Shown one piece after another: positions 7,498 through 44,137 of a stretch of 64,000 nt of DNA. The stretch's first letter is position 1. The number at the start of each line of letters is the position of its first letter. Where the stretch lies: contig NZ_CP166625.1 of the NCBI RefSeq assembly GCF_041320595.1, positions 4,772,001 through 4,836,000 on the forward strand, read 5' to 3'. The position numbers and the translations under genes are program-made. Below the pieces are notes generated by a model. It did no database searches. It was not told the origin of the DNA and was given only the letters and a program-made list of their open reading frames with translations. Origin of the DNA: Pleomorphomonas sp. PLEO. GTDB lineage: Bacteria; Pseudomonadota; Alphaproteobacteria; Rhizobiales; Pleomorphomonadaceae.

Positions 7498-7542
7498 CCG
7501 GCGCGGCCGACGTGCCTCTGGCTCTCCAGAGAGCACGCCTTT

Positions 7543-7896
7543 TCAGGGCTGCTCGGCAAGCGAATAGATGCGTTCCATCTCGAGCCATGTCGATCCTTCC
7601 GGGCCGCAGGGCAGCGTCTTCTGGAAGGTCCGCATCAGCGCATCCCAGGCTTTGACGTCCTCGTTGGCAGCGTCTCGCTCCACTTTGGCCGCCGGATCGA
7701 AGCGATCGCCCTGCTCCATGATCATGAACATGCGGTTCCCGATCAGATAGATCTCGAGTTCGCGGATATCGTCGGCGCGGATCGCGGCGGTCACTGCCGC
7801 CGGCGGTCCACTGGCGCGGTGCCAGTGGCGATAGAGAGCGACGCGTTCGGGGTCGTCATGAAGATCGACCGCGAAGCACTTACGCGTGGTTGTCAT
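7543..7896 (-). CDS. L-rhamnose/L-fucose mutarotase family protein (DUF718)
   Basis: A 117-residue protein of the RhaM/DUF718 mutarotase family, close to the usual 100-115. It interconverts alpha and beta anomers of 6-deoxyhexoses. Visible conserved parts are the N-terminal FAVDLHDDPERVALYRHWH, the IYLIGNRMFMIME core and the C-terminal WLEMERIYSL. It lies 77 bp downstream of the permease gene and is probably cotranscribed with it. Its presence with fucO is the main reason to assign the cluster to a deoxyhexose. Confidence 0.85.
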   Translation of the reverse strand: MTTTRKCFAVDLHDDPERVALYRHWHRASGPPAAVTAAIRADDIRELEIYLIGNRMFMIMEQGDRFDPAAKVERDAANEDVKAWDALMRTFQKTLPCGPEGSTWLEMERIYSLAEQP

Positions 7897-7973
7897 GGAT
7901 ACCTCCCTTTAGAAACGAGCGCCCGCCCCGACGATGCGCGTCAGGGCGGGTGGAGTGGCTGACCGTGACGGCC

Positions 7974-9266
7974 TTACTTCACCGAGCGGATCGGCAGGAC
8001 AAAGAAGGAGCCAAGACCGACGAAGATCACCGCGGCGATGAACAGCACCTTGTAATCGTGGCCGAACATGCCAAGGAGCACGGCGGCCATCGGCGGGCTG
8101 ATGATCTGCGGGATGTTGATGGCGGTGGTCAGCACGCCGAGGTCCTTGCCGGCTTCGCCCTGGACGGTCTTGGGCAATACCTGCGTCATCAGTGCGAGGT
8201 CGATCGACATGAAGGCGCCGTAGCCGATACCGATCAGCGCTGCGTAGATGTACATGCCGTTCATGTTCGGCATCCACAACGGCACCAACATGGCCAGCGC
8301 CATGATCAGGCTGGCGAAGAAGACGAAGGGCTTGCGACGCTTGCACTTATCGGAAAGGTACCCGCCCAGCAGCGAGGCCGTCACCACGAAGACGAAGGTG
8401 ATCGATGATATGTTGCCGATGCTGATGTTGGCATCCTCGTTGGACAGCTTGATGTAGTCCTGCAGGATGTAGAGCAGATAGGTGGCAACCGCCTGATAGC
8501 CCATGTAGATCGCGAAGCGGCCGGCAAAGGCCCAGGCGAAGTCATGCGATTTGAGCGGCCTCCAGAAGCCGTTGAGGAAGGAAGCGAAATCGAACTTCTC
8601 CGATTTCATGTCAGTTGATGGCGCCTCCCGGTTGACGAACACGAAGGCGAGGCAGGTGACGGCAATGGCGATGGCGAAGAAGCCGTAGGCGGTCACCATG
8701 TTGCCCGCCATGCGCCCGGCGACCACGGCGCCCGCCGCGACACCGGCCGTCATGCCGGCGCCGACAAAGCCGCCGGCAAGGCCGCGATTGCTTTCGGAAA
8801 ACCGATCGGCGACCACAGTGGTCAGCGCCGGCTGCATCGAGTTCAGCGCCACGGCGGCCATCACCCAGATAACCGTGATCGACACCAGGCTGGTCATGAA
8901 GGAAACGCCGAACAGAGCCGCGGCTCCCACCAACGCGCCAACAGCGATCCACGGCGAGCGACGCCCCCAGCGACTGCGCGTGCGATCCGACAATGCGCCA
9001 GCGATCGGCGTCGCAAGCGTCGAGAAGATCGAGGTGATGGCGAAGACGATGGCGAGATTGTTCGCCTTGTTCGCCGGATCAAGCGCGGCAATCTGGTTGG
9101 GCAGCAACACGCCAAGCACGCCGACATAGAGCCCCAGCAGGACGAAATTGTTGACCAGAAGCGAGGTCAAGAGGGTCCATTTGCGCGCACCCGCCACATA
9201 AGGCGTGCCACTGGCCTGGTCGAAATCCGCTTCGACCAGCTGATTGGGAAGGCTGGCATCCGACAT
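7974..9266 (-). CDS. MFS transporter, probable deoxyhexose permease
   Basis: A 430-residue major facilitator protein with about twelve hydrophobic segments. It carries an MFS loop motif of the type GALSDRTRSRWGRRSPWI after helix 2, and GGYLSDKCKRRKPFVF in the second half. It is expected in the inner membrane importing the substrate of the cluster. The ATG at 9266 follows GGAGGAAA and matches the start of the cytoplasmic N-tail; an ORF extending to 9464 has no such signal. A strong palindrome lies just upstream at 9283-9307. Confidence 0.85.
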   Translation of the reverse strand: MSDASLPNQLVEADFDQASGTPYVAGARKWTLLTSLLVNNFVLLGLYVGVLGVLLPNQIAALDPANKANNLAIVFAITSIFSTLATPIAGALSDRTRSRWGRRSPWIAVGALVGAAALFGVSFMTSLVSITVIWVMAAVALNSMQPALTTVVADRFSESNRGLAGGFVGAGMTAGVAAGAVVAGRMAGNMVTAYGFFAIAIAVTCLAFVFVNREAPSTDMKSEKFDFASFLNGFWRPLKSHDFAWAFAGRFAIYMGYQAVATYLLYILQDYIKLSNEDANISIGNISSITFVFVVTASLLGGYLSDKCKRRKPFVFFASLIMALAMLVPLWMPNMNGMYIYAALIGIGYGAFMSIDLALMTQVLPKTVQGEAGKDLGVLTTAINIPQIISPPMAAVLLGMFGHDYKVLFIAAVIFVGLGSFFVLPIRSVK

Positions 9267-9282
9267 TAAGGTTTCCTCCGCT

Positions 9283-9307
9283 TTGTAATATATGATATGT
9301 ATTACAA
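9283..9307. promoter_or_regulatory. Palindromic operator upstream of MFS permease gene
   Basis: The inverted repeat TTGTAATA / TATTACAA has a 9-bp centre and lies 17 bp upstream of the MFS start codon, spanning the expected promoter region. Read on the minus strand it contains ATACATATCATATATTA, which matches the 6534 operator core at 14 of 17 positions. Co-regulation by the FadR-type protein is inferred. Confidence 0.65.
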
Positions 9308-9509
9308 ATATCGGAAATATCGGCAAGAGCCTTTCAATGCGACGTAATACGTAGCGATTGCCAGCCAAGGAACCGGTCGCCGACGGCCACTCCCCCGGTT
9401 CGGCTACCGTGACGAGGACGTGATTCAGGCTCCCGAAAGGATCTGCCGGGACGTCGGGACCCAACGCCGATCCGTATCGACCGGGGCAGCTAACTCTTCA
9501 GCCGTGACC

Positions 9510-9591
9510 TCGCTCCACAGGGACGGCGCCATCCTCGACTTTTCCCGTCCAGGCAAGCCAATCGATAACACCGTCATCGAGAGCTTTTACG
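9510..9591 (+). pseudogene. IS3-family transposase OrfB fragment
   Basis: A short translated stretch reading ILDFSRPGKPIDNTVIESF matches the DDE-domain signature of IS3-family OrfB, in which the final E of the triad sits in FIESF. Nothing of the rest of the transposase is left in frame. Between here and 10,025 I see no recognisable gene; reading frames on both strands there look like shadows or scar DNA. Confidence 0.6.
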
Positions 9592-10025
9592 GCGCCCCTA
9601 CCCCCCAGAGGCTTGAACACACCTTGGAAGTGGTCCTTGGCCGGAGACAATCCCTCATGCCCCCTGAACGGACTTGATCTTTCCTGTTGCGTGGACACGA
9701 TGGGCCCCAAGGCGTGGATATCGGCGAGATCAGGAAGCAGCGTCTGCTTCGCCTCATCAAGGCGCACGCCGAGCCCGTCATCCTGATCGAGGCGGTGGCC
9801 GTTATGAGTAAATCGCGCCTGCTCGCCGATCTCGCCACCGCAAGCCACCTGCCGATCCAGCGAGATAGCCAGCCGCCAGAGGCCATCGGGGGCCTCGGCC
9901 TGGGGGGACGCGCCCTCCGATATCCCAGTCGATTGCCTGCCCAGTGTCGCAGGCGGCAACCGGTTGGTGCTTGCGAAGCGCCCGGCCACCGATCTGTCGG
10001 GCCTTGATCGCCTCGTTGTCTTCGG

Positions 10026-10232
10026 CGCGGCTCCTATGGCACCGGGGTTGCCCGCTACGGCCTTTCCGCCACCACCGATGCGCTCGAAATGGCCGCTTCG
10101 TTCCAGCGCTTCCAAACTTCGGGATTCTCTTCCACCACCAGCGACAACGGCAACACCGAGGCCGACGGCTACGACAACAGCACTGCATTGGCTACCGCCA
10201 GCTATCGGGTCAACGATGCGTTAGCGGCTCGA
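10026..10232 (+). pseudogene. TonB-dependent receptor (BtuB-like) fragment
   Basis: About 65 codons read RGSYGTGVARYGLSATTDAL and continue into FQRFQTSGFSS, then NGNTEADGYDN. This resembles the early beta-barrel of BtuB-type vitamin B12 receptors, just after the plug. There is no start, plug domain or remaining barrel, so it is an isolated gene fragment in scar DNA beside the island end. Confidence 0.5.
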
Positions 10233-10486
10233 TCGCTGCCCGCTGCTCTTCATCCAGCCAGAACTCTCCTGCCATGATCCAGGCTCCATCGTTCGACAAA
10301 GTGAATCATGACAGCCGATATTAATTAATTGGCTGATTGGGTTTCGGCCCAAGAGCGCTGAGCGAGGATTTGCGTTGCGAGCAAATGTGGTTGATCGGAG
10401 ACGCAGCCATCGGCTTTCGGCTAGCAACTCCCGCTTTCGAATAAGAATGACTCGATCGGGCTGTGGCCGCTTTCCGCTCAGCATAT

Positions 10487-10520
10487 TGGTTGCAGGGGCA
10501 CACCACCTGATTTGAACCTG
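10487..10520 (-). repeat. Degenerate tRNA-Met 3'-end-like remnant
   Basis: On the minus strand this reads CGCAGGTTCAAATC, then about ten unrelated bases, then CCCCTGCAACCA. The two halves match the T-arm and the acceptor 3' end of the initiator tRNA at 50,751. It is probably a relic of an earlier insertion or deletion at the same target; no complete tRNA can be folded. Confidence 0.45.
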
Positions 10521-10572
10521 CGATGCTAACTAACTGATTTTCTTAGTTCAGGATAATCGCACCAAAACAAAA

Positions 10573-10600
10573 CCCCAGCAACTCATTGAGTTTGCTGGGG
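10573..10600. terminator. Intrinsic terminator, probable original tRNA-fMet terminator
   Basis: The hairpin CCCCAGCAA..TTTGCTGGGG has T-rich tracts on both sides (TTTTCGTTT on plus, TTTTGTTTTGG on minus). On the minus strand it lies directly after the tRNA 3'-end copy at 10,615-10,630. It is therefore where the terminator of the tRNA would have been before the island inserted. From 10,631 to 10,868 I see no gene. Confidence 0.75.
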
Positions 10601-10614
10601 CTTTTCGTTTGTTT

Positions 10615-10630
10615 TGGTTGCGGGGGCAGG
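10615..10630. repeat. Left attachment-site repeat (attL)
   Basis: The sequence TGGTTGCGGGGGCAGG is identical to 50,751-50,766, the CCA end and acceptor/T-stem part of the tRNA gene on the opposite strand. The bases to its right diverge from the tRNA, as expected where island DNA begins. Confidence 0.7.
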
Positions 10631-10868
10631 CAACCTACGAGACCGACATTCGCTACGCGTATCCATCTAGCTGAATACTCTAGGCGGGTTCTCCATCCCG
10701 CTTCTTTGGCCACGCCAACATCGACAAAGCCAATCACCGCAAAAATTGCTGTGTATGAGTTGGGCTATCTTCGCATACTCATTCCAGATGCTGCGAAGTG
10801 GGCATCTTGAGGCGGCTCGGTTTGTTTGAACAGTTTTCGGCCGATTTATAAGTGGTTCTTGGCATCTT

Positions 10869-11081
10869 TCATGCCGCAAGCCGAGAAGGCTGCGGCTGGT
10901 CGAAGTAGACCTGATCGGGTGTTTTCCGGTCAAGCGATGAATGTGGGCGTCGTCCGTTATAGAAGCTCAGATATCGGCCGATGGCCGCCCGAGCTTCTCG
11001 GACCGTGTCGTAGGCGTGGAGGTAGACCTCCTCATATTTGATGGTGTGAGGCGGCTGAGCGTTCTCGAACTTGCCGAGCAA
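10869..11081 (-). pseudogene. IS3-family transposase C-terminal fragment
   Basis: About 70 codons contain KYEEVYLHAYDTVREARAAI and YNGRRPHSSLDRKTPDQVYF, the C-terminal end of an IS3-family OrfB downstream of its last catalytic glutamate. The N-terminal catalytic domain is missing. It abuts an oppositely oriented transposase fragment at 11,045. Confidence 0.75.
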
Positions 11082-11240
11082 CTAGGGAACGCTGCGGAGC
11101 CTTGTCGCCGCCGCGGCGTGAACCGGACAAGCTTCTACGAGTGGAAACGGGGTTCCAGCTCGAAGGTCTCGCCGGCCTGAAGGACCTGCCGCCGATCCAC
11201 GAGTCCCCCGCAGACGACGCCGATCCGTCCCTGTTCTAGA
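11045..11240 (+). pseudogene. HTH-transposase N-terminal fragment
   Basis: The plus-strand reading LELAEQLGNAAEPCRRRGVN, then TSFYEWKR, then (after a frame change) GLKDLPPIHES matches the N-terminal helix-turn-helix region of IS481/IS3-like integrase-type transposases. It is frameshifted and lacks the DDE domain. From 11,240 to 11,399 nothing else is recognisable. Confidence 0.6.
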
Positions 11241-11399
11241 GAGGGCAGCGCGATCTTCCTCCATATTCCGCGTCCCAACCTCGCCTCCACTGCCGGCTGC
11301 ATTGCCGTGGAGCGACGCAACATATTCCACCTGACAAGCAAGCTCCTGCCGGGGACGCTCATTAACATTCATCCCCACAGCTCAGACATGTAGCTAGGA

Positions 11400-12110
11400 T
11401 TACACCCTCAGCAATCCGGTGGAGGGCTGTCGATCCACGTTCACTAGATGTCTATCGAAACTGCGCCGATAGTCCTCCTCGAATGTCCCGAAGCTTCGAT
11501 ATGACGAATGAGCGTGGAACATCACGGTCGCCATTGGGTCCAGGCGCGTCTGATCCGTCGTCAAAATAATAGCTCTTGATACAGCGCTCTTCGGCGAATC
11601 CGGATTGTGAGAGATAACGAGGCGCAAATATCGCTCCCCGACTCCAAACAATATTACCCTTTCACCAAGTCGGATTACCGGTCCTTTATGCAGAGCCTTT
11701 CGTATCGCGTTTGCAGACCCATCCGGAAGAACATCTGGAATACTACGAAACACGAAGCCCCCTCTGGCCTCATCTATATCAAGATCACCGGTAACCACTT
11801 CTCCGCTCGAGCTTCGTCGCACATATCGCGATCTGCCAACGTATGCTGCAAGCGGCAATTGTTCAGCAGAGCTTGTGCTAGTCATACTCATAAGCAGCGC
11901 TAACAGCAGGGCGTCCTCGTCGCGAAAGGTCGCGTTAATAGCCTGGACCTTCGTGTGCTCGTGCGCATCCCTTCCAGAAATCACCGCTTCGACAGTCGCC
12001 TTCGCCAAGCCGGTGTCGCGACGCCATCGCTCTTTAGAAGTGCGCTTCTCGGCAATGGCCTCCTGAATGGACCGTCGGGCCAAGTCGAATATGCTGTCTA
12101 TGATTGCCAT
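11400..12110 (-). CDS. HTH-domain protein of unknown function, divergent from the LysA/MurE-like operon
   Basis: A 236-residue protein that I do not recognise. Residues about 22-62 (RWRRDTGLAKATVEAVISGR and following) look like a small Xre-like helix-turn-helix. Residues 75-90 contain a short hydrophobic stretch (LLLALLMSM). The remainder looks like a compact alpha/beta domain with no motif I can name. It is transcribed away from the operon that starts at 12,297, sharing a 186-bp intergenic region. That arrangement makes it a candidate regulator of the operon, by position only. It is bounded on the left by transposase debris. Confidence 0.55.
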   Translation of the reverse strand: MAIIDSIFDLARRSIQEAIAEKRTSKERWRRDTGLAKATVEAVISGRDAHEHTKVQAINATFRDEDALLLALLMSMTSTSSAEQLPLAAYVGRSRYVRRSSSGEVVTGDLDIDEARGGFVFRSIPDVLPDGSANAIRKALHKGPVIRLGERVILFGVGERYLRLVISHNPDSPKSAVSRAIILTTDQTRLDPMATVMFHAHSSYRSFGTFEEDYRRSFDRHLVNVDRQPSTGLLRV

Positions 12111-12296
12111 TTGCGGGACGGGCTAATTCGAGCGACAGAGACGGGCGAAGAACCGCGAATTCTGGCCGTCCTGGTCAAATCCCTGCAAGATCAGCTCCAT
12201 TTTAACCCAAATTTTCACCTGCCAGTTGTAGCGCGTTCGCGCCATAATTCAAGCCTCAGAGGGAGCAACCTGCCCCCTTCGCAAAGGGTCACGGTC

Positions 12297-13607
12297 ATGA
12301 TCAAGGGAAACAGAGTTTCAGACCACCCATTATACCGCGATGACCAGCTCACTCTCCAAATCGTCGAGAAGTATCACACTCCAACCTACGTATTCGACGA
12401 GAAAACAGTCAGGATGAATGCGCGAGAGATCATGAATTCGATCGCGTATCGCCCTTTCCACCCTCGATATGCTTGCAAGGCTCTCACGATCGGTGCCATC
12501 CTCAATATCGTTAGGGAGGAAGGTTTTTGGATCGACGCTTCGTCGATCAATGAGGTCGATCGGGCGCTGCGTGCTGGGTTCAAAGCCGCGGAGATCTACT
12601 ATACCGGAGAAGGGGCCACTCTGGAGGTCTATAGCACGCTCGTCCAGCGCGGCATTCTCGTAAACTGTACTTCGATCGATCAGATTCGGCTCCTCGGCCG
12701 AGCTGGTGCCACCAGATGCTCACTGCGACTTAATCCTGGCGAAGGGCATGGGGCTAACCATAAGACCAACACTGGAGGGCCCAGCAGCAAGCACGGGATC
12801 TATTTCACGCAAATTGACGATGCGAGGAGCGTCGCCGCAGAGAACGGAATCAAGGTCGTCGGAGTGCATTCGCATATCGGCTCCGGAACGGACTTGAGCC
12901 GATGGCTGTTCATCAAGGACAAAACGCTGGAAATGGCAAAGCGGTTTCCCGACCTAGAGATTGTCAATCTGGGCGGCGGCTTTCCAGTAATTTACGATGA
13001 CGACAAAGATGACGGAATGCCACTAGAGGGGTGGGGGAACGCTCTCTCGGCTTCCATGGACGAGTTCTCTCGCCAGATAGGAAGAAAGGTGGACCTGCAA
13101 ATCGAACCGGGCCGCTTCTTGGTGGCCGGCTCAGGGGTATTGCTCGCCGAAGCGCAAGCAGTAAAGACGACCGACCCTGACGAGCGCTCGGCCGGTTACA
13201 ACTTTGTAATTGTCAACACAGGATTGAATCACAATATCCGCCCGTCCCTATATGGAGCATTCCATCCGATCCGGTTTGTACCGCGCGACGGGGTTTCTCG
13301 GGCCGTAAGCAAGCCCTATGTTGTTGCCGGTTACCTCTGTGAATCAGGCGATGTATTCACCGTCACCGCCGAGAATGATGGAACTTTGGCTCCGCGAGTA
13401 TTTCCGGAAGTACGTGTTGGCGACATCATGGTAATGGCCGGAGTTGGTGCCTACTCGCATTCAATGAAGAGTGAGTACAACTCCATGAATCTTCCCGCGT
13501 CCATCCTGATTGAAGAAAGCGGCCATCTGCGAGTAATCGAGCGTAGAGGCACTCTGGACGACCTAATGAGACGGGAATTGGAGGCTTACGACGATACGTC
13601 ATCATAA
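12297..13607 (+). CDS. Diaminopimelate decarboxylase homologue, E. coli LysA type (orphan paralogue)
   Basis: A 436-residue fold-III PLP decarboxylase. PLP lysine is K61 in YACKALT. Other motifs are HSHIGSG, NLGGGFPV, IEPGRFL, the substrate-site cysteine in LCESGDVF, and GVGAYSHSMKSEYNS near the C-terminus. The stretch NPGEGHGANHKTNTGG with SKHGI matches the E. coli LysA lineage rather than the short YAVKAN type that I would expect as an alphaproteobacterial housekeeping LysA. The expected reaction is decarboxylation of meso-diaminopimelate or a close analogue, such as another D-configured amino-acid centre. The ATG at 12,297 is preferred, with AAAGGG upstream; the longer reading frame from 11,955 overlaps the divergent gene. 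It is first in a three-gene operon, 21 bp before the next gene. Confidence 0.8.
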   Translation: MIKGNRVSDHPLYRDDQLTLQIVEKYHTPTYVFDEKTVRMNAREIMNSIAYRPFHPRYACKALTIGAILNIVREEGFWIDASSINEVDRALRAGFKAAEIYYTGEGATLEVYSTLVQRGILVNCTSIDQIRLLGRAGATRCSLRLNPGEGHGANHKTNTGGPSSKHGIYFTQIDDARSVAAENGIKVVGVHSHIGSGTDLSRWLFIKDKTLEMAKRFPDLEIVNLGGGFPVIYDDDKDDGMPLEGWGNALSASMDEFSRQIGRKVDLQIEPGRFLVAGSGVLLAEAQAVKTTDPDERSAGYNFVIVNTGLNHNIRPSLYGAFHPIRFVPRDGVSRAVSKPYVVAGYLCESGDVFTVTAENDGTLAPRVFPEVRVGDIMVMAGVGAYSHSMKSEYNSMNLPASILIEESGHLRVIERRGTLDDLMRRELEAYDDTSS

Positions 13608-13628
13608 TTCAACGCCGGGAGACCGCAA

Positions 13629-14837
13629 ATGAGACTATCAAGCAATATTGAAAAGGTCATTCGGGACATTGCAGCCAGCGGATCTTCGGGACGAAGCTTC
13701 TATGTCTACGAATTGACTCCTATGGTGTCGAAGATCGCGGGGCTCAGAAGCGCCCTCCCGGAACGCGTTGAGATTTTTTACGCGATGAAGGCGAACCCAC
13801 ACCCAGCGTTCCTGCGAGCCGCTTTGGATGCCGGGATCGGGGGAGTTGAGATCGCGAGTATAGGAGAAGGAAAAAAGGCTATAGAGGCCGGATTTTCACC
13901 TAAGCAGATTGTGTTCACGGGGCCAGGAAAGTCGCCAGAAGAACTAAGATGGGCGGCAACAACCGGCATCCGGTTAGTCCACATCGAGTCTCTGACCGAG
14001 GCCCATCGGCTAAACAGCATCTGTTCCGAGTTGGGAACTACGCAGAATATTCTTATCCGCGTCAATCCAAATTTTCAGGTTCACGGCGCCCAAGCGACCT
14101 TTTCCGGTGACAGTTCGAAGTTTGGGATAGATCAGAACCAGTTCCTCGACAAACTGCATCTTATAATTGCCTTAAGTAACCTTAGCGTACAAGGTCTTCA
14201 CGTCTATTCGGCGAGCGGCGTGCTGGTCGCCAGCGATCTACTGGAGAACTGCCGTAGGGTGTTTGAACTCGCTTCCGTAGTTTCGGAACGACACCATGTC
14301 GACCTCTGTAAGGTCATCGATTTCGGTGGAGGATTCGGCATCGACTATCTTGAAACCGGGGCTGACTTTTCGTTGCCTGAGTATGCCTCAGGACTAAAGG
14401 CCCTTATCGCACGATACGGCTATGAAGATCGACAATTTGTCCTCGAGTTGGGGCGCTATCTGGCGGCTGATAGTGGCTGGTATTGCAGCGAGATACTCGA
14501 CATCAAGTCGAGCTTGGGGGTTAAGCAGGTCGTCTGTCAGGGTGGCTCGCATCACTTCCGACGACCTGTCGCGCTAAAGATCAATCACCCCACATCTATC
14601 GTCTCAATCGGTCGTCCGCCTGTGTTTGAGGAGCAAGAAGAGGTGGTCGACGAGGAGGCGTTCATTGGAGGGGCGCTTTGTAACTCGGCCGACAAGCTTA
14701 CTGCGGAGCCGATCGTTATTCAGCACGCACGTATCGGCGACATCTTTGTCGTCGGTTTAGCCGGGGCCTATGGATACTCGATGAGTCATCTCGATTTCCT
14801 GTCCCATGAACGCCCCGAAGAGGTCGTGGTCCCTTAG
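13629..14837 (+). CDS. Second fold-III PLP-dependent decarboxylase (BtrK/LysA-like)
   Basis: A 402-residue paralogous-fold enzyme with PLP lysine K54 in YAMKANPHP, DFGGGFGIDY, LELGRYL (in place of EPGR), GALCNSADKL (the cysteine region) and GAYGYSMSHLDFLSH. These variant motifs are typical of the BtrK-like group, which includes decarboxylases acting on carrier-protein-bound or unusual amino acids. The His of the usual HIGS motif region reads HVYSAS. Substrate is unknown. Having two different decarboxylases of one fold side by side argues for a dedicated pathway rather than lysine synthesis. The ribosome site GGGAGA precedes the ATG, and the next gene follows after 41 bp. Confidence 0.75.
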   Translation: MRLSSNIEKVIRDIAASGSSGRSFYVYELTPMVSKIAGLRSALPERVEIFYAMKANPHPAFLRAALDAGIGGVEIASIGEGKKAIEAGFSPKQIVFTGPGKSPEELRWAATTGIRLVHIESLTEAHRLNSICSELGTTQNILIRVNPNFQVHGAQATFSGDSSKFGIDQNQFLDKLHLIIALSNLSVQGLHVYSASGVLVASDLLENCRRVFELASVVSERHHVDLCKVIDFGGGFGIDYLETGADFSLPEYASGLKALIARYGYEDRQFVLELGRYLAADSGWYCSEILDIKSSLGVKQVVCQGGSHHFRRPVALKINHPTSIVSIGRPPVFEEQEEVVDEEAFIGGALCNSADKLTAEPIVIQHARIGDIFVVGLAGAYGYSMSHLDFLSHERPEEVVVP

Positions 14838-14878
14838 GGGATCTCTAGTGGAAAGAGCGCCGGTCCGGAGGGATCAAA

Positions 14879-16471
14879 ATGACGTTTGCTGAACTTGTCG
14901 ACATTGTTGATCCGATTTACGTAACATCAACGCTAAAGGCACAGGCGTTAATTTTGTATGGCGCTACAATGGATAGCAGAAAGGTGGATCCCGGCGACAT
15001 CTTCTTCTCGCTTGAGGCCAAGGCCCCAACACCGAGCGGGGATGTTCCAAAGGATGATCGCCCAAGGTTCATCGCGAGCGCGATAGAGAGTGGAGCGCAG
15101 GTTGTCGTATTTGAGCCAGGCCTCAACCTTGACGACCTTCCTGTTGATGATTACGCTCGGTCAAAGGTGATTTTTGTGCAGGTTGCGAACCCTGAGCTCG
15201 CATTTGCGCAGGTCGCCTTTCGCTTTATACAGAAGAGACCCCACCACATTGCTGCGGTAACAGGCACCAATGGCAAGACCTCGACCGTATCGATCCTACG
15301 CGACATTTGGCGGGCCGTCGGGCGAGATGCATACTCCCTCGGTACATTGGGGTTGATTTCGGATGAGCCTCATAATTGTCTTGTAACAGGCCTGACCACT
15401 CCTCAACCCGACGCGTTCTGCAAGCTACTTAAGGCAGTGGCGGAGAAGCACACACGCTCGTACCTCGCTGTTGAGGCTTCGAGCCAAGGGCTAAACGAGG
15501 AGCGGTTGTCGAGCGTTGAGGTCGATGTCGCCGCTTTCTCCAACCTTACACGGGATCACCTGAACTACCACAGCTACAACCGCAAGAAGCGGACTATGGA
15601 CGACGATCTAGGGGCGTTCGAGAGATACGCTGAATGCAAACGGATGCTTTTCCTCGATCGCCTCAAGAAGGAGGGTGTTGCTGTTGTTAATATCGACGAC
15701 CGTTACGGCGTCGATCTGATCACTTCGATATCGGCACAGAGACCGGATGTCCAAATACTGACCTGCTCGTGTGAGCACGCAACAGCCGACTTCTTTGTAG
15801 CATCGGCGACCCAAAGTGACGTCGGGGTTGAACTGACAATGCACCACGGCCCGGAGGTTGTGGCAATCGCAATGCCGTTGTATGGCGCGTTTCAGCGATA
15901 CAATGCGGTGCTGGCTGTCGGAATGGCAGTCGCATCAGGCGTATCATTTGGCGAAGCTGTGGCTGCGCTGGGTCGCGTCCGGCCGGTGCGAGGAAGGATG
16001 GAGTTCGTTGGGGAGACCAACACGTGCGGGCGTGTTTATGTTGATTATGCTCACACGGACGATGCACTGCGGTCGATTTTAACTGGCGCGCGTGAGGCGT
16101 TTCCTGGAAGACCAATCTCGATCGTCTTTGGTGCTGGCGGCGATCGCGACGTAGGAAAGCGTCCGCGAATGGGTCGGGTCGCCGGAGAACTAGCGGACCA
16201 GATATTCGTCACAGACGATAATCCACGAAGTGAAGATCCTGGTATTATTCGCGCCCAGGTCATGGGTGGCATCGTTGAAGCGGGAGCGGAAAGAAGAGCT
16301 GCCTCGGTAGCTCCTCGTGACGTCGCGATCTCCCAAGCCGTTTCGAATCTACCGAAGGCGGGTATCCTCCTGATTGCCGGCAAGGGGCACGAAGACTACC
16401 AGGATATCAAGGGGAAGAAGTTCCCGTTCGATGACGTTGTTGTCGCGTTACGGGCACTGCAGAGACGGTGA
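14879..16471 (+). CDS. MurE-like Mur ligase (orphan amino-acid ligase)
   Basis: A 530-residue ATP-dependent Mur ligase. Motifs are the ATP loop TGTNGKTS at 128-135, VEASSQGL (MurE enzymes have SSHGL), NLTRDHLNYH, YAHTDDAL, GAGGDRDVGKRPRMG, DNPRSEDP and AGKGHEDY. DNPR is the signature that lets Gram-negative MurE recognise meso-diaminopimelate. In the N-terminal domain the DSRKVxPGDIFFSL core is kept, but the loop after it is rewritten and extended (APTPSGDVPKDD), so the acyl acceptor may not be UDP-MurNAc-dipeptide. It probably ligates a diaminopimelate-like amino acid to an unknown acid. GGAGGGATC precedes the ATG. It is the last gene of the operon and transposase debris follows within 30 bp. 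Confidence 0.8.
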   Translation: MTFAELVDIVDPIYVTSTLKAQALILYGATMDSRKVDPGDIFFSLEAKAPTPSGDVPKDDRPRFIASAIESGAQVVVFEPGLNLDDLPVDDYARSKVIFVQVANPELAFAQVAFRFIQKRPHHIAAVTGTNGKTSTVSILRDIWRAVGRDAYSLGTLGLISDEPHNCLVTGLTTPQPDAFCKLLKAVAEKHTRSYLAVEASSQGLNEERLSSVEVDVAAFSNLTRDHLNYHSYNRKKRTMDDDLGAFERYAECKRMLFLDRLKKEGVAVVNIDDRYGVDLITSISAQRPDVQILTCSCEHATADFFVASATQSDVGVELTMHHGPEVVAIAMPLYGAFQRYNAVLAVGMAVASGVSFGEAVAALGRVRPVRGRMEFVGETNTCGRVYVDYAHTDDALRSILTGAREAFPGRPISIVFGAGGDRDVGKRPRMGRVAGELADQIFVTDDNPRSEDPGIIRAQVMGGIVEAGAERRAASVAPRDVAISQAVSNLPKAGILLIAGKGHEDYQDIKGKKFPFDDVVVALRALQRR

Positions 16472-16499
16472 CCTCGGAACTCGCGATCGGGCCGAAGAT

Positions 16500-16721
16500 C
16501 TTGTTGCAACGCTCGAGCCCGTCCGCGCCGAGGTCGGCTACCCGAAGACAATCCGGATCGGTCAGTACTCGGAGTCGTCAGTCGGGATCTCGACCTCTGG
16601 GCCGACCATAAGAGCGTCGTCCCGGACTTCTCACGGCCCGGCAAGCCAACGGACAACGGGCTTCATCGAGAGTTTCAACGGCAAGCTCCGCGCCGAGTGC
16701 CTGAACACGCATTGTTCATGA
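16500..16721 (+). pseudogene. IS3-family transposase OrfB fragment, frameshifted
   Basis: The stretch GFIESFNGKLRAECLNTH is the DDE-domain end of an IS3-family OrfB. Upstream bases give, in shifting frames, the expected YPKTIRI..SEF and DFSRPGKPTDN pieces, so several frameshifts have accumulated. It closes the right flank of the orphan operon. Confidence 0.7.
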
Positions 16722-16734
16722 GTGAGGTGGCTCC

Positions 16735-17385
16735 ACCGGACTGGACAGCTTGTCGGCCTTCGTAAGCTTGGGCCGATGGTCCGTCACGCCGCCAGTCTGA
16801 TGTCGCCGGCCTCCACGTGGACCTCGACGGGTGTACGCCCACTGTGTGTCGAATGAGGTCGTTCGAAGTTGTAGTAGTCGATCCACCGTCCGATGCCGGC
16901 ACGGGCTTCCCAGCCGGTCTCGTAAGCGTGGAGATAGATGCACTCGTACTTCATCGAACGCCATAGCCGCTCGATGAAGACGTTGTCCATCCGCCGACCC
17001 CGCCCGTCCATGGAGATTCGTATACCTGCATCGGTCAGGAGCTCCGTAAACCCGTGGGCCGCTGAACTGGGCTGCCTGGTCCGTGTCGAAGATTTCTGGT
17101 CTCCTATGTCTCGCCATGGCCTCCTCGACCGCGGCGATGTAGAAGTCGGCATCCATCGTGTTCGACAGCCGCCACGCCAATACCCGCAGGCTCGCCCAAT
17201 CCATTACGGCGACGAGGTAGAGGAAGCCCCGTCGCATCGGGATGTAGGTGATATCGGCGTATCAGATGTGGGGCACGCAAGCGCACGGACACCCCGCAGG
17301 CTTCACAGCTCAATTCGAGGTGTTGCCAGCGCTCCAGTAGGGCGGCTTTGAATGTGACCGTGAGGATGATGGTCTCGTCTTCCAT
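16735..17385 (-). pseudogene. IS3-family transposase OrfB, inactivated
   Basis: The catalytic domain can be followed in two frames. One reads YADITYIPMRRGFLYLVAVM, then DADFYIAAVEEAMARH and IFDTDQAAQFS. The second, after about 17,060, reads MDNVFIERLWRSMKYECIYL, then AGIGRWIDYYNFERPHS. A TGA replaces the usual Trp codon before YADITYIP near 17,265. It is a decayed insertion sequence. From 17,386 to 17,536 nothing else is recognisable. Confidence 0.75.
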
Positions 17386-17536
17386 GTCCCGAATATACGT
17401 TCAGAACAAATAGTGAACAACTGACATCGTTCGTCAGTAGTGTCTGTTGAAAACTGTAGGGTTAATCCGGCCGGGGTTGTGGTTACACAACACAAAGAGT
17501 TCAATCGGTTATTGGCTGATTCGCAAAAAACGAACA

Positions 17537-17558
17537 GCCTAGAGGTGCAACTCTAGGC
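17537..17558 (-). terminator. Possible intrinsic terminator
   Basis: The 8-bp stem GCCTAGAG / CTCTAGGC has a six-base loop. On the minus strand it is followed closely by TGTTCGTTTTTT. It could end transcription leftward. No T-tract follows on the plus strand. Confidence 0.45.
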
Positions 17559-17690
17559 CGTTTGAATTGGATCAGCAGCGACGTTTGTCTGAACTACCGT
17601 CGCTCTTTGGATAACCAAATTGGTGATAAACTGATTTGGGTATCCCATGCAAGCTGGTTCAGCCAACAGCCATTACAAAGGATAACCATT

Positions 17691-17891
17691 ATGGCTGAAC
17701 CTGAGACGCCGCGACGCGGCGATCGAGCCCCGTCCTACATGCTCACGGCAGAGGATGCCGCAATCATCAAAGCTCGTATCCGTAAGGGCGAGTTCTTGAA
17801 CCGCATTGCGGCCGACTTCGACGTGAACCCTGGTCGGATCAGCGAGATCAAGACGGGAAAGCGCTTCGCTGAAATCCCGCCTGCCGTCTAG
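17691..17891 (+). CDS. Small HTH-domain protein
   Basis: A 66-residue basic protein. Residues 18-60 form a homeodomain-like helix-turn-helix (AEDAAIIKARIRKGEFLNRI, then DFDVNPGRISEIKTGKRF). It is probably DNA-binding, like small regulators found on mobile elements. AAGGAT precedes the ATG by a normal distance. It stands 166 bp upstream of the HD/Hsp90-like gene, with which it may be associated. The target is unknown. Confidence 0.6.
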   Translation: MAEPETPRRGDRAPSYMLTAEDAAIIKARIRKGEFLNRIAADFDVNPGRISEIKTGKRFAEIPPAV

Positions 17892-18057
17892 CGGCACCGA
17901 CAGGGAGGCGCGGGGTAACCCGCGCCTTTCCAGCTTAGCGATATGAGGTAGGCACAAGCCAATTGATACGCCCTTTGAGAATGAAGTGACCAGATCCGTC
18001 TTCTAGTCGATGAACCGCCCCAAGCCAGCGAGGCTCATTCGTAATTGGAGGTGTGAA

Positions 18058-20751
18058 GTGCAGTGGGAAAATGTTGGCCTCTGGGCACGAGCCATGGACA
18101 AGACCCGATGGGAGCCCTATTCCCACGCCCTACTCGACGAACTGATTGTTGAATATAGAATTTTCTGGCAGAACGCTTGCAAGTTATCGGCCCAGATAGC
18201 CAGAACGCTGCCATCCCTAACCCTCCACGACGAGAAGCATTTCTTTTCACTATGGCAGCGTGCGGATGTAATCGCTGGGCCGAATTACTTGATCACTCCA
18301 CTTGAGGCATTTGTATTCGGTTCGGCTATCTTGCTTCACGACGCAGCAAATTCCGTAGCCGCATTTCCGGGTGGTCTGTCTGAAATTCAGGCTAACGTTA
18401 TTTGGCAGGATGCAGAGGCAGATTGGGCTCACAAACATGAGCACAATTGGGATGAGAAGATTCCCAACTCGGCTCAGGATGAAATTCTCTTTAACACGCT
18501 TCGAGAACTCCATGCTCAGCGAGCCACCAGTCTAGCATGGCTAAAAGTCGGATCAGGCCCCGAAGAACGCCACCTCCTGCAGGATGAGAGGCTTAGGCAC
18601 CATTGCGGCGAGATCATCGGCCTGATTGCCGCAAGTCATCACTGGAACAGTTCTGACCTTGAAAAGCTTCCGAAATTTAAAGGCGCTCTTGATGGCATGC
18701 CTAGCGAGTGGAGTGTGCGCCCGATCGTGCTAGCCTGCTTACTTCGGTGTGCAGATGCCGTTCAAGTTGACCAATCACGTGCGCCAGACTTCCTACTTGC
18801 TTTACTAAATATTCGTGGTGTTTCTCGTGATCATTGGGTGGGTCAAAACAGATTATCGATACCGTTTGTCCTTCCAGAGGACCCCAAAGCGCTTTGCTTC
18901 ACGTCGACAAAATCATTTTCCGAGGAGGACGTCGCCGCATGGTGGGTTGCCAGAGACGCCCTCGCAGTCGCGGACCTCGAGCTTAAAAAGTCGGATGAAT
19001 TACTTCGTGACCTTCGCCTTGCCCCCTTCGCCATTGATCACATCCGCGATGCTTCATCGACAGAAAGGATTTCAAGCCAAATATTGACTGACGGATGGAG
19101 ACCGATATCTGCGGAGGTACGGATTTCAAACGTGTCTCACGTCGTTTCAATGTTTGGTGGCGCCGCACTTTATGGCTATAATCCAATCGTTGCTTTACGT
19201 GAGCTAATTCAAAACAGTATCGACGCTATTCAACAGCGGCGAAAATTGGACGATGATTTTCAAGGTTCGATAACAATTCAAGTTGAGCCAGACGGGGATG
19301 GTGAGCACATCTTCATAATTGTTGATGATGACGGCATCGGAATGTCTGAAGCTGTACTTACCGGACCACTCATCGATTTCGGCGCTAGCTATGCCGGGTC
19401 AACTTTGATGAGAAAAGAGCGCCCCGGCTTAATGGCAAGAAGAGCTCCGCGAATTGGTCGCTACGGGATTGGATTCTTTTCAGTATTCATGATTTCAAGC
19501 GATGTATCAGTTACCTCTCGAAACTTTGACTCAGGAATTGATTCGTTCCTGACGCTAAAGTTTAAAAATGGCCTCTTGAACAGACCCATATTAAAAACTA
19601 CTGGCGAGCAACTACCGGGCGCTCGCATATCAACTCGAGTCCGTCTCCGTGTTAACCGCACGACATTTGATAAGTTACGCACCGTTAGTTTCTCTCTCAA
19701 AGAGTACATTGTATCCCTACCCGAGGCGATTGGCGCTTTATGTCCGATGGCGGACGTAGATATTTTCGTCGTGGAGTCAGGGAGAAAGATGAACGTTCAC
19801 AAGCGCGACTGGCATAAAGGCGATCTGACTTCTTGGCTTCTCAGCATATTTCCTGGACGAGTTTATATTGACGCCTTCAATGATAAAGAGAGATCTTCGC
19901 TCACAAATACCTTAGATCAGGACTATGATGGCGTCATGGGGAAAATGTCGCAACATATTAGGCTGATTTGCGATACACACCCTCAGTTTGGCGCTGCCTG
20001 CATAATTGGCTCCGTCGGCTACTCACTATCCACCGTTGGGGGGCTTCGGACAGAGTTAACATTTGGCTCTGTTGAAGAAAAGTGGTCCGGAGTCATTGAC
20101 CACGTCCCAACAGGGGCGACGCGCCATGTAGGCCCCATTCTCGCACCCGCTGATGCCTTGGCAAAATGGGCGTCTCTCCAAGCACACCTAGCAACTCAGG
20201 CCAATTTCGCCCCGAAAACGCTCAACTTAATTTCAAGTACTACATCAATATTCGCCGGCGATATCACAGATACAATACGCATTCGTATAAACAACAAATG
20301 GCGCACAGCTCAAGAAGTATCAGATATACTTATTTCAGGAGAACAAATATTTTGCCCAATTTTCACTCTTACCGGATATCCATCAATTGTCGATTTACAA
20401 TATACGGTTATAAAAGAATATCTACGTGTACTTAGAATGGATATCTCGTATTTTGGGGATAAATTCCGATACAAGTGCACCACGTTGGAGCACACGCCGT
20501 CTTCAGCGCTAGACCACAATCCAGATAGGGAACTTAGTTTGTTTGACATCGAGCCAAACGGATATGGATTACTTGATATTTTAATCACACTGTGCGATAG
20601 GCGTAATTATACTTTAGATATATCGTACATGGATAATCATTTATTTGCGACTTACGTGGGAAAAGCACCTGGAAAACTAGGGCTAAAGAAACCATACGAA
20701 GTTCGAGGAGACGCAATGCGTTTAACTGCTTACGATTCGAGTTCTCAGTAA
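18058..20751 (+). CDS. HD-domain plus Hsp90-type (GHKL) ATPase protein, putative conflict/defence protein
   Basis: An 897-residue two-domain protein. The N-terminal third has an HD-like helical domain with LHDEKH (about residue 56) and ILLHDAAN (about 94), plus SHHW further on. From about residue 375 a GHKL/Hsp90-type ATP-binding fold follows, with LRELIQNSIDAI (N box), DDDGIGM (G1 box) and GRYGIGFFSVF (G2 box). HD plus Hsp90-ATPase proteins of this size occur in genomic islands and are thought to act in biological conflict; defence activity here is inferred. The GTG at 18,058 follows GGAGG at 7 nt; an ATG at 18,010 would add 16 residues. Base composition is clearly AT-richer than the surroundings, a sign of transfer. 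Confidence 0.65.
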   Translation: MQWENVGLWARAMDKTRWEPYSHALLDELIVEYRIFWQNACKLSAQIARTLPSLTLHDEKHFFSLWQRADVIAGPNYLITPLEAFVFGSAILLHDAANSVAAFPGGLSEIQANVIWQDAEADWAHKHEHNWDEKIPNSAQDEILFNTLRELHAQRATSLAWLKVGSGPEERHLLQDERLRHHCGEIIGLIAASHHWNSSDLEKLPKFKGALDGMPSEWSVRPIVLACLLRCADAVQVDQSRAPDFLLALLNIRGVSRDHWVGQNRLSIPFVLPEDPKALCFTSTKSFSEEDVAAWWVARDALAVADLELKKSDELLRDLRLAPFAIDHIRDASSTERISSQILTDGWRPISAEVRISNVSHVVSMFGGAALYGYNPIVALRELIQNSIDAIQQRRKLDDDFQGSITIQVEPDGDGEHIFIIVDDDGIGMSEAVLTGPLIDFGASYAGSTLMRKERPGLMARRAPRIGRYGIGFFSVFMISSDVSVTSRNFDSGIDSFLTLKFKNGLLNRPILKTTGEQLPGARISTRVRLRVNRTTFDKLRTVSFSLKEYIVSLPEAIGALCPMADVDIFVVESGRKMNVHKRDWHKGDLTSWLLSIFPGRVYIDAFNDKERSSLTNTLDQDYDGVMGKMSQHIRLICDTHPQFGAACIIGSVGYSLSTVGGLRTELTFGSVEEKWSGVIDHVPTGATRHVGPILAPADALAKWASLQAHLATQANFAPKTLNLISSTTSIFAGDITDTIRIRINNKWRTAQEVSDILISGEQIFCPIFTLTGYPSIVDLQYTVIKEYLRVLRMDISYFGDKFRYKCTTLEHTPSSALDHNPDRELSLFDIEPNGYGLLDILITLCDRRNYTLDISYMDNHLFATYVGKAPGKLGLKKPYEVRGDAMRLTAYDSSSQ

Positions 20752-22084: not shown

Positions 22085-23008
22085 TCAAGCGCCGCCTCCG
22101 AAACGGTAGACCGGGATACCGAGCTTCCTGGCCTTGTCGGCGAGATTGTCCTGAATGCCTGTACCGGGAAAGACGATGATGCCGATTGGCAGGACGGCCA
22201 GCATCGCGTCATTGCGCTTGAACGGCGCCGCCTTGGCGTGTTTGGTCCAGTCGGGTTTGAAGGCAACCTGAGGAACTTTGCGATGGTCGGCCCAGCGGGC
22301 AGCGATCTTCTCGGCGCCTTTCGGCGAACCGCCGTGCAGCAGCACCATGTCGGGATGCTTGGCATGGACCTGATCGAGCTTGGCCCAGATGAGGTTGTGA
22401 TCAGTGCTGTCGCCGCCGGTGAAGGCGATCTTCGGCCCGGCCGGTAATAAGACTTCGGTCTCGGCGCGACGCTTGGCGGCGAGGAAATCGCGACTGTCGA
22501 TCATTGCGGCGGTCAGGTTGCGATGGTTGACCATCGAGCCGGTGCGAGGGCGCCAGCTTGATCCGGTGTGACGCTCGAAGTGATCGGCGGCCTGGTCGCG
22601 CATCAGTTCGAAGGCGTTCCGGCGTTCGATCAGCGTCTGGCCCTCGGCGGTCAGGCGCTCAAGTTCGACCGATTTCACCTCGCTGCCGTCCTGTTCGCGT
22701 TGGTTGCGACGCTGCGCCTGTTCGTTGTCGTCCAGTTCGCGTTCGATCCGGTCGGTGGCGCGGTGGAAGAGATTGACGGTCGACCACAGGAGATCGTCGA
22801 GGTCCGGCTCGAGGCGGGTGTCGGCGAGTGTCGAGATCAGGGCGTCGAAGATGTCGGCGATGGCACCGGCGACATGGTTGCCTTCGGGGAGCGGCCGGGG
22901 ATCGGGTTCCTCCTCAAAGGGGCGGTAGCCGTAGAGCTGAAGCTCCTGCAGAACGTGGTCGGTTGGAGAAGAGCCGTGATGAGGCTCAAAGTCATCGTAC
23001 TCGCTCAT
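22085..23008 (-). CDS. DUF2493-domain protein of plasmid/ICE type
   Basis: A 307-residue protein. The N-terminal half is acidic and helical (about residues 60-180). The C-terminal 110 residues form a DUF2493 Rossmann-like domain: KIAFTGGDSTDH, MVLLHGGSPKGAEKIAARWA, VAFKPDW and IIVFPGTGIQDNLADKA. Such proteins are recurrent on alphaproteobacterial plasmids and ICEs, and a nucleotide-related role is only guessed. The start at 23,008 (MSEYDDFE) is chosen over 23,086 because the extra residues are Arg-rich read-through. It belongs with the Toprim, ParB-like and DUF932 genes downstream of coordinate 23.3 kb, all on the minus strand. Confidence 0.7.
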   Translation of the reverse strand: MSEYDDFEPHHGSSPTDHVLQELQLYGYRPFEEEPDPRPLPEGNHVAGAIADIFDALISTLADTRLEPDLDDLLWSTVNLFHRATDRIERELDDNEQAQRRNQREQDGSEVKSVELERLTAEGQTLIERRNAFELMRDQAADHFERHTGSSWRPRTGSMVNHRNLTAAMIDSRDFLAAKRRAETEVLLPAGPKIAFTGGDSTDHNLIWAKLDQVHAKHPDMVLLHGGSPKGAEKIAARWADHRKVPQVAFKPDWTKHAKAAPFKRNDAMLAVLPIGIIVFPGTGIQDNLADKARKLGIPVYRFGGGA

Positions 23009-23134
23009 TAGGGTGCTCCATCGGATGGACCGCGACCGTCGCGGGCCTTCATGGCGACAAAGCCCACGGGCGGGACGGCCTTGCACCCGGACGCGGCACG
23101 CGACCGGGCCGGAGCGTCAGCGGAGGATGGCAGA

Positions 23135-23196
23135 GGCCGGCTATTTTGCCTCGCGATGGAAAGCGGCCCAAAGGCCGCGCCGGAAAATAGCCGGCC
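23135..23196. repeat. Nested palindrome in the 319-bp gap between the Toprim and DUF2493 genes
   Basis: A 13-bp exact inverted repeat (GGCCGGCTATTTT at 23,135-23,147; AAAATAGCCGGCC at 23,184-23,196) encloses a second hairpin, GCGGCC-caaa-GGCCGC at 23,163-23,178. There is no T-tract, so it is not a simple terminator. It could be a structured RNA, a protein-binding site, or an origin or nick region of the element. No coding sequence is supported in 23,009-23,327. Confidence 0.5.
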
Positions 23197-23327
23197 GCCG
23201 CCATTGCCGGGCCGACCCGGCCGTGGGCCGATCGCCCTCTCGAAGGCCGGACGCGGTCCTCTCCGATGCTGGTGCATTCGGACGGGCATGTTGGCGGCGG
23301 TCCCCACCGCCTCTTCCCCGTTTCCGG

Positions 23328-24365
23328 TCACGCTGCCTGCATCATGAAGCGGGCGACGTCCTGCGGGGCGAGTTGAACCCGGATGTTGGCCCGGAGGGCA
23401 TTGATGCCGAGGTGGCGGAGATCCTCGTTGAAATCTCCGAGCTTGGGCGACAACGCGATCGCCTCGATGCCGGCCGCGTTCGCCCGTTCGATCAGGTTGT
23501 CCCGTGCTCCATCGCCGGCTGGATCGTTGTCGCGGACGACGTAGAGGCGTCGGAGTGCCGCCGGGAATAGAATGGCGGCGAGATGGACCGCGGAAAGAGC
23601 GGCTGCCATCGCCATGGTGGGCATGGCTTCGCTAACTGAGAGGACAGTTTCGATGCCTTCGCCTGCCGCCATGACTTCGTCAGATATACCGAAGCGGACG
23701 GCGTGCCCGAGGAGATCGCCCACAGCTTTCCGCTGCGTGTCGATTGGTGCCTTGTCGGAACCGTCGAGTGCGAGCCAGGTGCGATGCGCGCCGGTAATCC
23801 TGCCGTCGAGATCGGTGACGGCGGCGATCATCGCCGGCCAGACTTCGGTCGGGCTGTGCTCATCGGGCCGATAATAGCATCGGGGATGAAAGCGGAGGTT
23901 TCCGGTTGCGTGCAAAGCCGTAATGCCGCGATGGCGCAGATACGTTTCCACGAGCGTGCCGCCGATCGGCTGCGACATGGCGAACAGCCGCCGTGCCGCT
24001 TCTGCCGAACCTGACGGCGCTGATGTGCTGCGGTGCCGCCTCGATGTCGGCTCCGGTTCAAGATGCGGCAAGCTGAGGAAGCGCCTGGCCTCTTCCACGA
24101 CATCGGCGAAGTCGATGAGACCGAGGGATTCCCGGATCACGTCGAGCAGATCGCCATGCTCGCCGGTGGCGGCGTCGGTCCATTTGCCAGCCGGACCTTT
24201 GGGGCCGTCCCTCAGTCGCACGAACATCGAGCGGCCGGGTGAGTTGCGGACATCGCCAACCTGCCAATAGTTGCCCTGACGACGGCCAGCGTCGAGATAG
24301 TGCCGGCATACCGCTTCGGCGTGGTCGGCAAGACGGCGTGCCAGATCATGCGATTTTTCCACCAT
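23328..24365 (-). CDS. Toprim-domain protein (plasmid/ICE primase-like)
   Basis: A 345-residue protein. The N-terminal half (residues 1-130) is of the DUF7146/primase-like kind, with a GxYWxVGD region, RSMFVRLRDG and KWTDAATGEHGDLLDVI. It is followed by ITGAHRTWLA and a Toprim domain with the glutamate in GEGIETVLS and the Asp pair in VVRDNDPAGDGA. The likely role is replication or DNA processing of the mobile element. It is 68 bp downstream of the ParB-like gene. No helicase domain is fused. Confidence 0.75.
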   Translation of the reverse strand: MVEKSHDLARRLADHAEAVCRHYLDAGRRQGNYWQVGDVRNSPGRSMFVRLRDGPKGPAGKWTDAATGEHGDLLDVIRESLGLIDFADVVEEARRFLSLPHLEPEPTSRRHRSTSAPSGSAEAARRLFAMSQPIGGTLVETYLRHRGITALHATGNLRFHPRCYYRPDEHSPTEVWPAMIAAVTDLDGRITGAHRTWLALDGSDKAPIDTQRKAVGDLLGHAVRFGISDEVMAAGEGIETVLSVSEAMPTMAMAAALSAVHLAAILFPAALRRLYVVRDNDPAGDGARDNLIERANAAGIEAIALSPKLGDFNEDLRHLGINALRANIRVQLAPQDVARFMMQAA

Positions 24366-35412: not shown

Positions 35413-35413
35413 G

Positions 35414-44057: not shown

Positions 44058-44137
44058 GCTTTACCCTTCATTTTACACCTTAGTGACGTTAGCAGATTCT
44101 TTGCCTTGCCACCACCATCGGTGATAAATTCCGTGTA

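Follow-up and report, generated by a model that had tools for sequence, protein, structure and literature searches.

Three tightly spaced genes in the genome of Pleomorphomonas sp. PLEO encode two different pyridoxal phosphate (PLP) fold-III decarboxylases, herein called DC1 and DC2, and an altered MurE-like ATP-dependent amide ligase, in a setting which tentatively suggests a small cargo pathway acting on meso-diaminopimelate (DAP) or a close analogue. The genes lie in a stretch of 64,000 nucleotides (NZ_CP166625.1, positions 4,772,001 to 4,836,000), to which all coordinates below refer and which as a whole is called the window. In the pathway that we propose, DAP would be joined to an unusual carboxylate, and a precursor or the product would be decarboxylated; we give this reading a real chance, though one somewhat short of even. 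The substrates, the product and the role are inferred, as is the order of the steps, for which the argument is a chemical one. The component families are known; for their combination, for the altered ligase and for the setting no description was found in the open-licence literature, where no paper on the trio turned up either, as the original prediction had expected.

All four reading frames that had been predicted are intact and in place, namely a divergent gene and the three plus-strand genes for DC1 (12297-13607, 436 aa, a LysA-type, that is meso-diaminopimelate decarboxylase-like, enzyme), DC2 (13629-14837, 402 aa, related to SbnH) and the ligase (14879-16471, 530 aa), and searches of Pfam, NCBIfam and the PDB confirmed the prediction of two different fold-III decarboxylases and one Mur ligase. 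Since the gaps between the genes are merely 21 bp (DC1 to DC2) and 41 bp (DC2 to ligase), and a GGGAGA-like and a GGAGGG-like stretch precede the starts of DC2 and of the ligase, we infer that the three are co-transcribed as a single operon. A scan of 11350-16800 for promoters and terminators gave no clear excess over shuffled sequences (4 vs a mean of 2.9, and 5 vs 4.7). The G+C content is 54.3% in the operon and 53.4% in the divergent gene, against 60.4% in the window and 62.4-65.8% in three host loci.

The trio is not the host's housekeeping set. Its genome, a single contig of 5.48 Mb, has four fold-III decarboxylase matches, namely DC1, DC2, a LysA at 854808 which scores 484.8 bits on the LysA model (cut-off 297.9), and another protein at 1153200 which groups with rows that we take, by their CDSAD motif, to be ODC-like. 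Apart from the window ligase, the genome encodes a single full-length MurE (at 2569504), which is fused to MurF and passes both MurE equivalogs (710.3 bits on PRK00139.1-2 and 500.4 on PRK00139.1-4). As the host has a LysA of its own, a further decarboxylase and the MurE-MurF fusion, DC1 and the ligase are not its housekeeping lysA and murE, and the possibility that they were is rejected; that housekeeping does not need the set had been claimed from the window sequence, and it holds.

The ligase and the two decarboxylases

The ligase can be aligned with MurE over its whole length, with 36-41% sequence identity to the proteins of Alphaproteobacteria, and passes the TIGR01085 murE subfamily cut-off (337.9 bits vs 257.3), while it stays below both MurE equivalogs (418.9 vs 476 on PRK00139.1-2 and 348.4 vs 373 on PRK00139.1-4). 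We aligned it with the best MurE from each of 24 loci found earlier, an uneven sample which gives 25 rows in all. The P-loop (GTNGKT), GGDRD, DNPR, GKGHE and the conserved lysine are retained, and DNPR (16217-16228, residue 447 onward), which we take to be the motif for meso-DAP recognition, is aligned with DNPR in 24 of the 24 compared proteins. The three features pointed out in the original prediction, DNPR, SSQGL and an unusual N-terminal loop (APTPSGDVPKDD), are all present, and SSQGL is unique to the ligase, as 23 of the other rows have SSH at this place and one has TSM. Moreover, a feature that had gone unmentioned there is an insertion of 13 residues between DHLNYH and the next conserved lysine (residues 232-244, 15572-15610, with codon positions counted by hand), which occurs in 0 of the 24 compared MurE proteins. 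Going by MurE structures, the altered segments presumably face the acceptor, that is the UDP-MurNAc-dipeptide side. Trees of LysA and MurE, as the original prediction had proposed, put DC1 in a sister position to E. coli-type LysA and the ligase on a long end branch (2.8) with no starred sister set; in the MurE tree, proteins of at least 600 aa were trimmed to the first 560 residues, except for a copy on a Streptomyces plasmid. This copy (L123:7935-9419), which has TSM in place of SSH and no mur cluster in the opened stretch, is the lone one among three plasmid MurE loci that we opened, the other two being ordinary mra/mur clusters.

DC1 has E. coli LysA (1knw) as its best PDB match, and in the alignment it retains the LysA signatures K, EPGR, RPxxY, CESGD and GAY, whose roles we presume to be in catalysis and DAP binding. 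Its start is most likely the ATG at 12297, judging by the alignment with a relative of 61% identity, L102; the start chosen by the open reading frame finder, a GTG at 11955, falls within the opposite-strand gene. On the TIGR01048 lysA equivalog DC1 scores 289.5 bits, 8.4 short of the cut-off of 297.9, in a scan of the frame from 11955, which contains the entire domain, and L102 passes with 332.7. The decarboxylase tree holds 34 proteins, namely 32 of 36 matches (L031, L113, L094 and L106 were dropped as duplicates or near-duplicates) and the two window proteins, and 22 of the 34 rows were printed in the motif alignment. In the tree, DC1 and L102 form a pair (100/100) that joins the LysA rows of E. 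coli, Sinorhizobium, two Rhizobium and Mitsuaria (98/93) as their sister and not nested among them; thus of the predicted E. coli-lineage LysA with every catalytic motif, the motifs stand, and the lineage is to be read as a neighbouring one.

The relative L102 comes from an alphaproteobacterial metagenome-assembled genome (MAG), where its neighbours by Pfam are an NlpC/P60 protein with a dipeptidyl-peptidase SH3 domain, an MR_MLE-family enzyme, an oligopeptide-type binding protein and an RpiR-type regulator, together with permease and ATPase frames read by eye. By analogy with YkfC/DPP-VI and with dipeptide epimerases, we take this single context to read as murein-peptide catabolism, in which the LysA relative would take the DAP released from murein peptides. 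Searches of 398 genomes from the phylum (at E 1e-88), 385 from the class (at 1e-95) and 101 from around the MAG (at 1e-90) yielded no further protein of the DC1 type besides DC1 itself and L102. Five plasmid loci with DC1 relatives were opened, among them one of Mitsuaria with a LysR regulator nearby and three from records that carry no annotation. The LysA on S. meliloti pSymB (L126:1-7233; 41% identity to DC1) adjoins a PLP-dependent transferase, a MATE exporter and a nonribosomal peptide synthetase (NRPS)-type gene, and is perhaps a LysA of secondary metabolism.

DC2 is of another kind. It scores only 219.4 bits on TIGR01048, below the cut-off of 297.9, has CNSAD, ELGR and RPVAL in place of the LysA motifs CESGD, EPGR and RPxxY, and stands in the tree as sister to two decarboxylases from NRPS-independent siderophore (NIS) clusters (98/93), with about 33-34% identity to the siderophore-locus proteins. 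Its nearest solved structures, 6knh, 6kni and 6knk, are of SbnH, the N-citryl-diaminopropionate decarboxylase of staphyloferrin B synthesis, according to two papers (PMC7139808, PMC7857480). Five SbnH residues, R304, S308, W309, K347 and H379, are discussed as lying near the citryl group in the latter (PMC7857480), and a hand count on the PDB-match alignment finds two of the five in DC2 (R304 as R311 and H379 as H387), while K347, S308 and W309 are replaced by A354, A315 and L316. Pfam scans of 32 different frames of the window gave no match to IucA/IucC. A siderophore locus is therefore not supported, since the scanned frames hold no IucA/IucC and three of the five SbnH residues are lost.

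The members of the DC2 subfamily come from Pannonibacter, from Zetaproteobacteria and from a small number of others. Of 297 genomes of the order, 9 match DC2 with E values of 1e-50 or lower, but only three of these, counting the window, reach 61% identity; in a collection of 84,980 species, a pattern scan, which misses relatives that lack one of its two peptide patterns, gave 57 loci, of which 37 (L031-L067) lie at 55-67% identity to DC2. DC2 was recognised in 37 of 38 loci; a first gene family lies immediately upstream of it in 27 of these, and a second immediately downstream in 18. For example, in one of the zetaproteobacterial loci (L034-L066) the order is argH-dapC-DC2-dapD (L045:1857-7030), where DC2 has as neighbours a DapC-like protein (457.9 bits, slightly below the cut-off of 474.6) and DapD (458.4, cut-off 375.4), with ArgH further upstream. 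In three isolates of Mariprofundus (erugo, micogutta and strain KV), whose genomes are drafts, the fold-III matches are an arginine decarboxylase and DC2, and in erugo also an ODC-like protein; the LysA model gives 230 for DC2 and 183 for the ODC-like protein, both below 297.9. Because no scanned fold-III decarboxylase of these isolates passes the LysA cut-off, the DC2-type enzyme is the best candidate for their missing LysA. If so, DC2 would represent a second LysA family, or else a decarboxylase working on an acylated DAP intermediate. Two zetaproteobacterial MAGs (L114 and L120) have an extra FslC-like decarboxylase, likewise below the cut-off, and in the open-licence literature no paper was found with both 'diaminopimelate decarboxylase' and 'Mariprofundus'.

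The context differs in two alphaproteobacterial genomes (L142:4485-12091 and L010), where the neighbours of DC2 are a polyamine-type ABC transporter, an EamA permease and a gene of the glyoxalase family; the transporter was read by eye, with its binding protein identified by Pfam in one of the two. Moreover, the alphaproteobacterial rows have CN[ST]AD and MSH, and a Burkholderiaceae row sides with them, whereas CTGAD and MSN stand in the four rows printed for Zetaproteobacteria. Given this split of motifs, the substrates of the two DC2 types may differ.

The surrounding island

The operon lies just inside what is probably one integrated island of about 40 kb, from about 10.6 to 50.8 kb. The region is taken as a single element in view of a tRNA-Met gene (50751-50827, minus strand, by ARAGORN) as the probable right boundary, an adjoining serine recombinase (49043-50794), and an exact 16-bp copy of the tRNA-Met 3' end (50751-50766) at 10615-10630 on the plus strand as the probable left boundary. 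The repeat is the best in the list of short matches when the tRNA region is compared by BLAST with 7501-18100 (E 0.005), and it has two exact copies in the window, against a chance expectation of 0.06 when up to two mismatches are allowed. A second, imperfect tRNA-like stretch near 10486-10525 precedes the left repeat and hints at an earlier integration.

Transposase debris had been predicted on both sides of the operon. On the right, an rve domain (PF00665, E 2.3e-8) lies on the minus strand at 16716-17237, with a weak rve_3 match, below the Pfam cut-off, at 16374-16721; on the left, a stretch at 9526-9593, which falls outside the left repeat of the island and has no Pfam match of its own, is recognised by its similarity to 16614-16682. 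These two ends are only 75-85% identical, and a composite transposon with identical ends is thus not supported.

Further inside, a set of phosphorothioate defence genes on the minus strand (29021-45319) gives profile matches in the order SspA, H, G, F, a PAPS-reductase-domain protein, C and B, in which the PAPS-reductase-domain protein occupies the position of SspD; a gene with an HNH endonuclease domain adjoins the set. Beside the operon, a protein of 913 aa (18010-20751) has HD-CE and HSP90/HATPase-type domains and only marginal PADLOC matches, and a SLOG-family (YAcAr) protein and a DUF7146/Toprim protein lie within the probable island at 22085-24365.

The gene divergent from the operon (11400-12110, minus strand, 236 aa) is an intact frame and a putative regulator, with a helix-turn-helix read by eye. 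It has no match in Pfam, NCBIfam, PADLOC or the PDB, a single PHROG match at chance level (E 0.064), and no relatives in 296 other sampled genomes of the order, in plasmids or, by pattern scan, in viral contigs, and its alignment-free AlphaFold model has a mean predicted local distance difference test (pLDDT) score of 33.4.

A candidate pathway and its alternatives

As the ligase keeps its signatures for DAP and ATP and is changed in other parts, the most economical reading is that it joins DAP to another carboxylate. It would activate this carboxylate with ATP and, like MurE, couple it to the amine at the L-centre of DAP, though its acceptor side would be remodelled. Ligation at this amine would leave the D-centre free for DC1, which would turn free DAP into L-lysine, or would yield N-alpha-acyl-L-lysine if it acted after ligation. 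DC2 would decarboxylate a free alpha-amino-acid end; it could not act at the acylated L-centre, because its Schiff base needs a free alpha-amine, and so it would work either before ligation, on free L-lysine, or on an amino-acid end of the acceptor. The characterised members of its clade include decarboxylases of citryl-bound or carrier-bound amino acids, such as BtrK, which acts on carrier-bound glutamate (PMC7857480). The pathway would end in a small amide of lysine or of a diamine.

Taken with its setting, the proposal would become that of an undescribed, horizontally moved DAP-amide pathway on a phosphorothioate-defence island, with a MurE-derived ligase for a new acceptor, a LysA of the murein-salvage type and an SbnH-type decarboxylase, whose lysine or diamine amide would serve as a signal, an antimetabolite, or a modification for the wall or for defence; so specified, it is a doubtful proposition. 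If it were true, Mur-ligase chemistry would have moved from wall synthesis into a mobile small-molecule pathway drawing on the DAP pool of the cell.

Several observations weigh against such a pathway. The operon holds no gene for making an acceptor or for export. The N-terminal loop of the ligase is weaker evidence than the original prediction implied, as its length and sequence vary in several other MurE rows too (L017, L025, L137-L140). The long branch of the ligase could reflect relaxed selection. The operon may differ in origin from the rest of the island, since the Ssp stretch has an ordinary G+C content of 61.2%. Above all, no other genome examined contained the three genes together, so that their joint function rests on proximity in one genome.

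As to this last point, the original prediction looked to co-occurrence of the three families elsewhere, and this expectation failed, as none of the 37 close DC2 loci has the other two genes within its flanks, which reach up to 10 kb and are often far shorter on short contigs. Throughout the DC2-family loci there is no MurE-like match, and the DC1 matches there are the DC2 gene itself. In 385 Alphaproteobacteria, the window aside, no MurE exceeds 45% identity to the ligase at E 1e-85, the best lying at 40-45%, and among 100 sampled relatives nothing besides the window appears at 1e-90. The operon is in none of 13 other genomes of the genus, two of which give only matches of 52-68 bases. A DC1-like and a DC2-like gene both occur in one other genome, a MAG, where each lies on its own contig and one MurE match is present, and one Paenibacillus plasmid is in the lists of both DC2 and the ligase, with the matches about 89 kb apart. 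Among the matches listed, all lie below 60% identity in plasmids (30 listed for each enzyme, out of 258 records for DC1, 270 for DC2 and 82 for the ligase) and in the phage collection (10 listed for each, out of 20 records for DC1 and 32 for the ligase). Phage cargo is not supported, as viral contigs hold no relative of any of the three enzymes by exact 8-residue patterns, which detect close relatives only. The genome collections have one genome per species, which leaves room for unseen cases of the trio. Altogether, the small DAP-related pathway originally predicted is supported in part, by the host's own LysA and MurE, the altered ligase, the deviant G+C content and the probable island; the DAP amide stays a candidate product, and the trio was seen nowhere else in the genomes searched.

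Among the alternatives, the one that survives best is that of island-borne isozymes, in which two DAP decarboxylases and a divergent MurE of ordinary chemistry would provide extra capacity for lysine or peptidoglycan, salvage of DAP, or variants that escape an inhibitor of the host's LysA or MurE. All three enzymes are in fact related to DAP-using enzymes, the LysA signature of DC1 is intact, the Mariprofundus isolates seem to use a DC2-type enzyme instead of LysA, and L137-L140, which deviate at the N-terminal loop, are nevertheless the sole MurE matches in their genomes; moreover, free DAP supports the growth of marine Pseudomonadota by way of LysA, as reported in PMC9602339. However, plain lysine supply would not require an operon with two DAP decarboxylases from different clades, DC2 differs from its zetaproteobacterial counterparts at conserved positions (CNSAD and MSH vs CTGAD and MSN), and the 13-residue insertion of the ligase has no parallel in the compared MurE proteins. 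We consider this explanation somewhat unlikely.

A foreign fragment pieced together through insertion sequences and turnover of the island, lacking any joint function and possibly in decay, would account for the transposase remnants on both sides of the operon, for the lack of a second trio and for a regulator with no relatives. Such a chance passenger is set against three long frames on the same strand, tightly spaced and with their catalytic motifs retained, and the meeting of three DAP-related genes by chance is in our judgement unlikely; we hold this explanation to be clearly unlikely.

Lower still we place a cargo for modifying the wall or for defence, which would change the chemistry of the peptidoglycan stem, for instance by putting lysine, cadaverine or an extra amide in the place of DAP, and so protect against phage lysins or the wall enzymes of rivals. 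The probable island does hold the Ssp system (profile matches to SspA, B, C, F, G and H) and the HD-CE/HATPase protein, and the ligase retains the signature for the cell-wall amino acid. Co-location on an island is weak evidence, however, with the Ssp part differing in G+C content; neither the three enzymes nor the regulator matches a PADLOC profile, and the changed segments of the ligase seem to lie on the UDP-MurNAc-dipeptide side, which speaks against an acceptor of the ordinary wall-precursor kind. This explanation is quite improbable.

Comparison with known systems

Each component of the operon has a well-known counterpart from which it departs. DC1 shares with E. coli-type LysA (1knw) the fold family, the catalytic lysine, EPGR, RPxxY and CESGD, and joins the LysA rows in the tree; it differs in forming, with L102, a separate sister branch, in scoring below the TIGR01048 cut-off, and in occurring in a host that also has a canonical LysA. 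DC2 resembles SbnH and AcsE, and more distantly BtrK, being nearest to 6knh among structures and sister to NIS-cluster decarboxylases; two siderophore loci that we opened have an IucA/IucC synthetase, whereas none is near DC2 in the scanned frames. Its zetaproteobacterial homologues belong to the same subfamily (55-58% identity) and have ELGR, FRRP, NHP and FLSH in common with it, yet they have CTGAD and MSN where the window protein has CNSAD and MSH, and their context is DAP synthesis with no MurE-like ligase. Finally, the ligase is a full-length homologue of MurE with the motifs for ATP and DAP and the conserved lysine, and departs from MurE by its insertion of 13 residues, the change of H to Q in SSHGL, the altered N-terminal loop, the scores below the equivalogs and the long branch.

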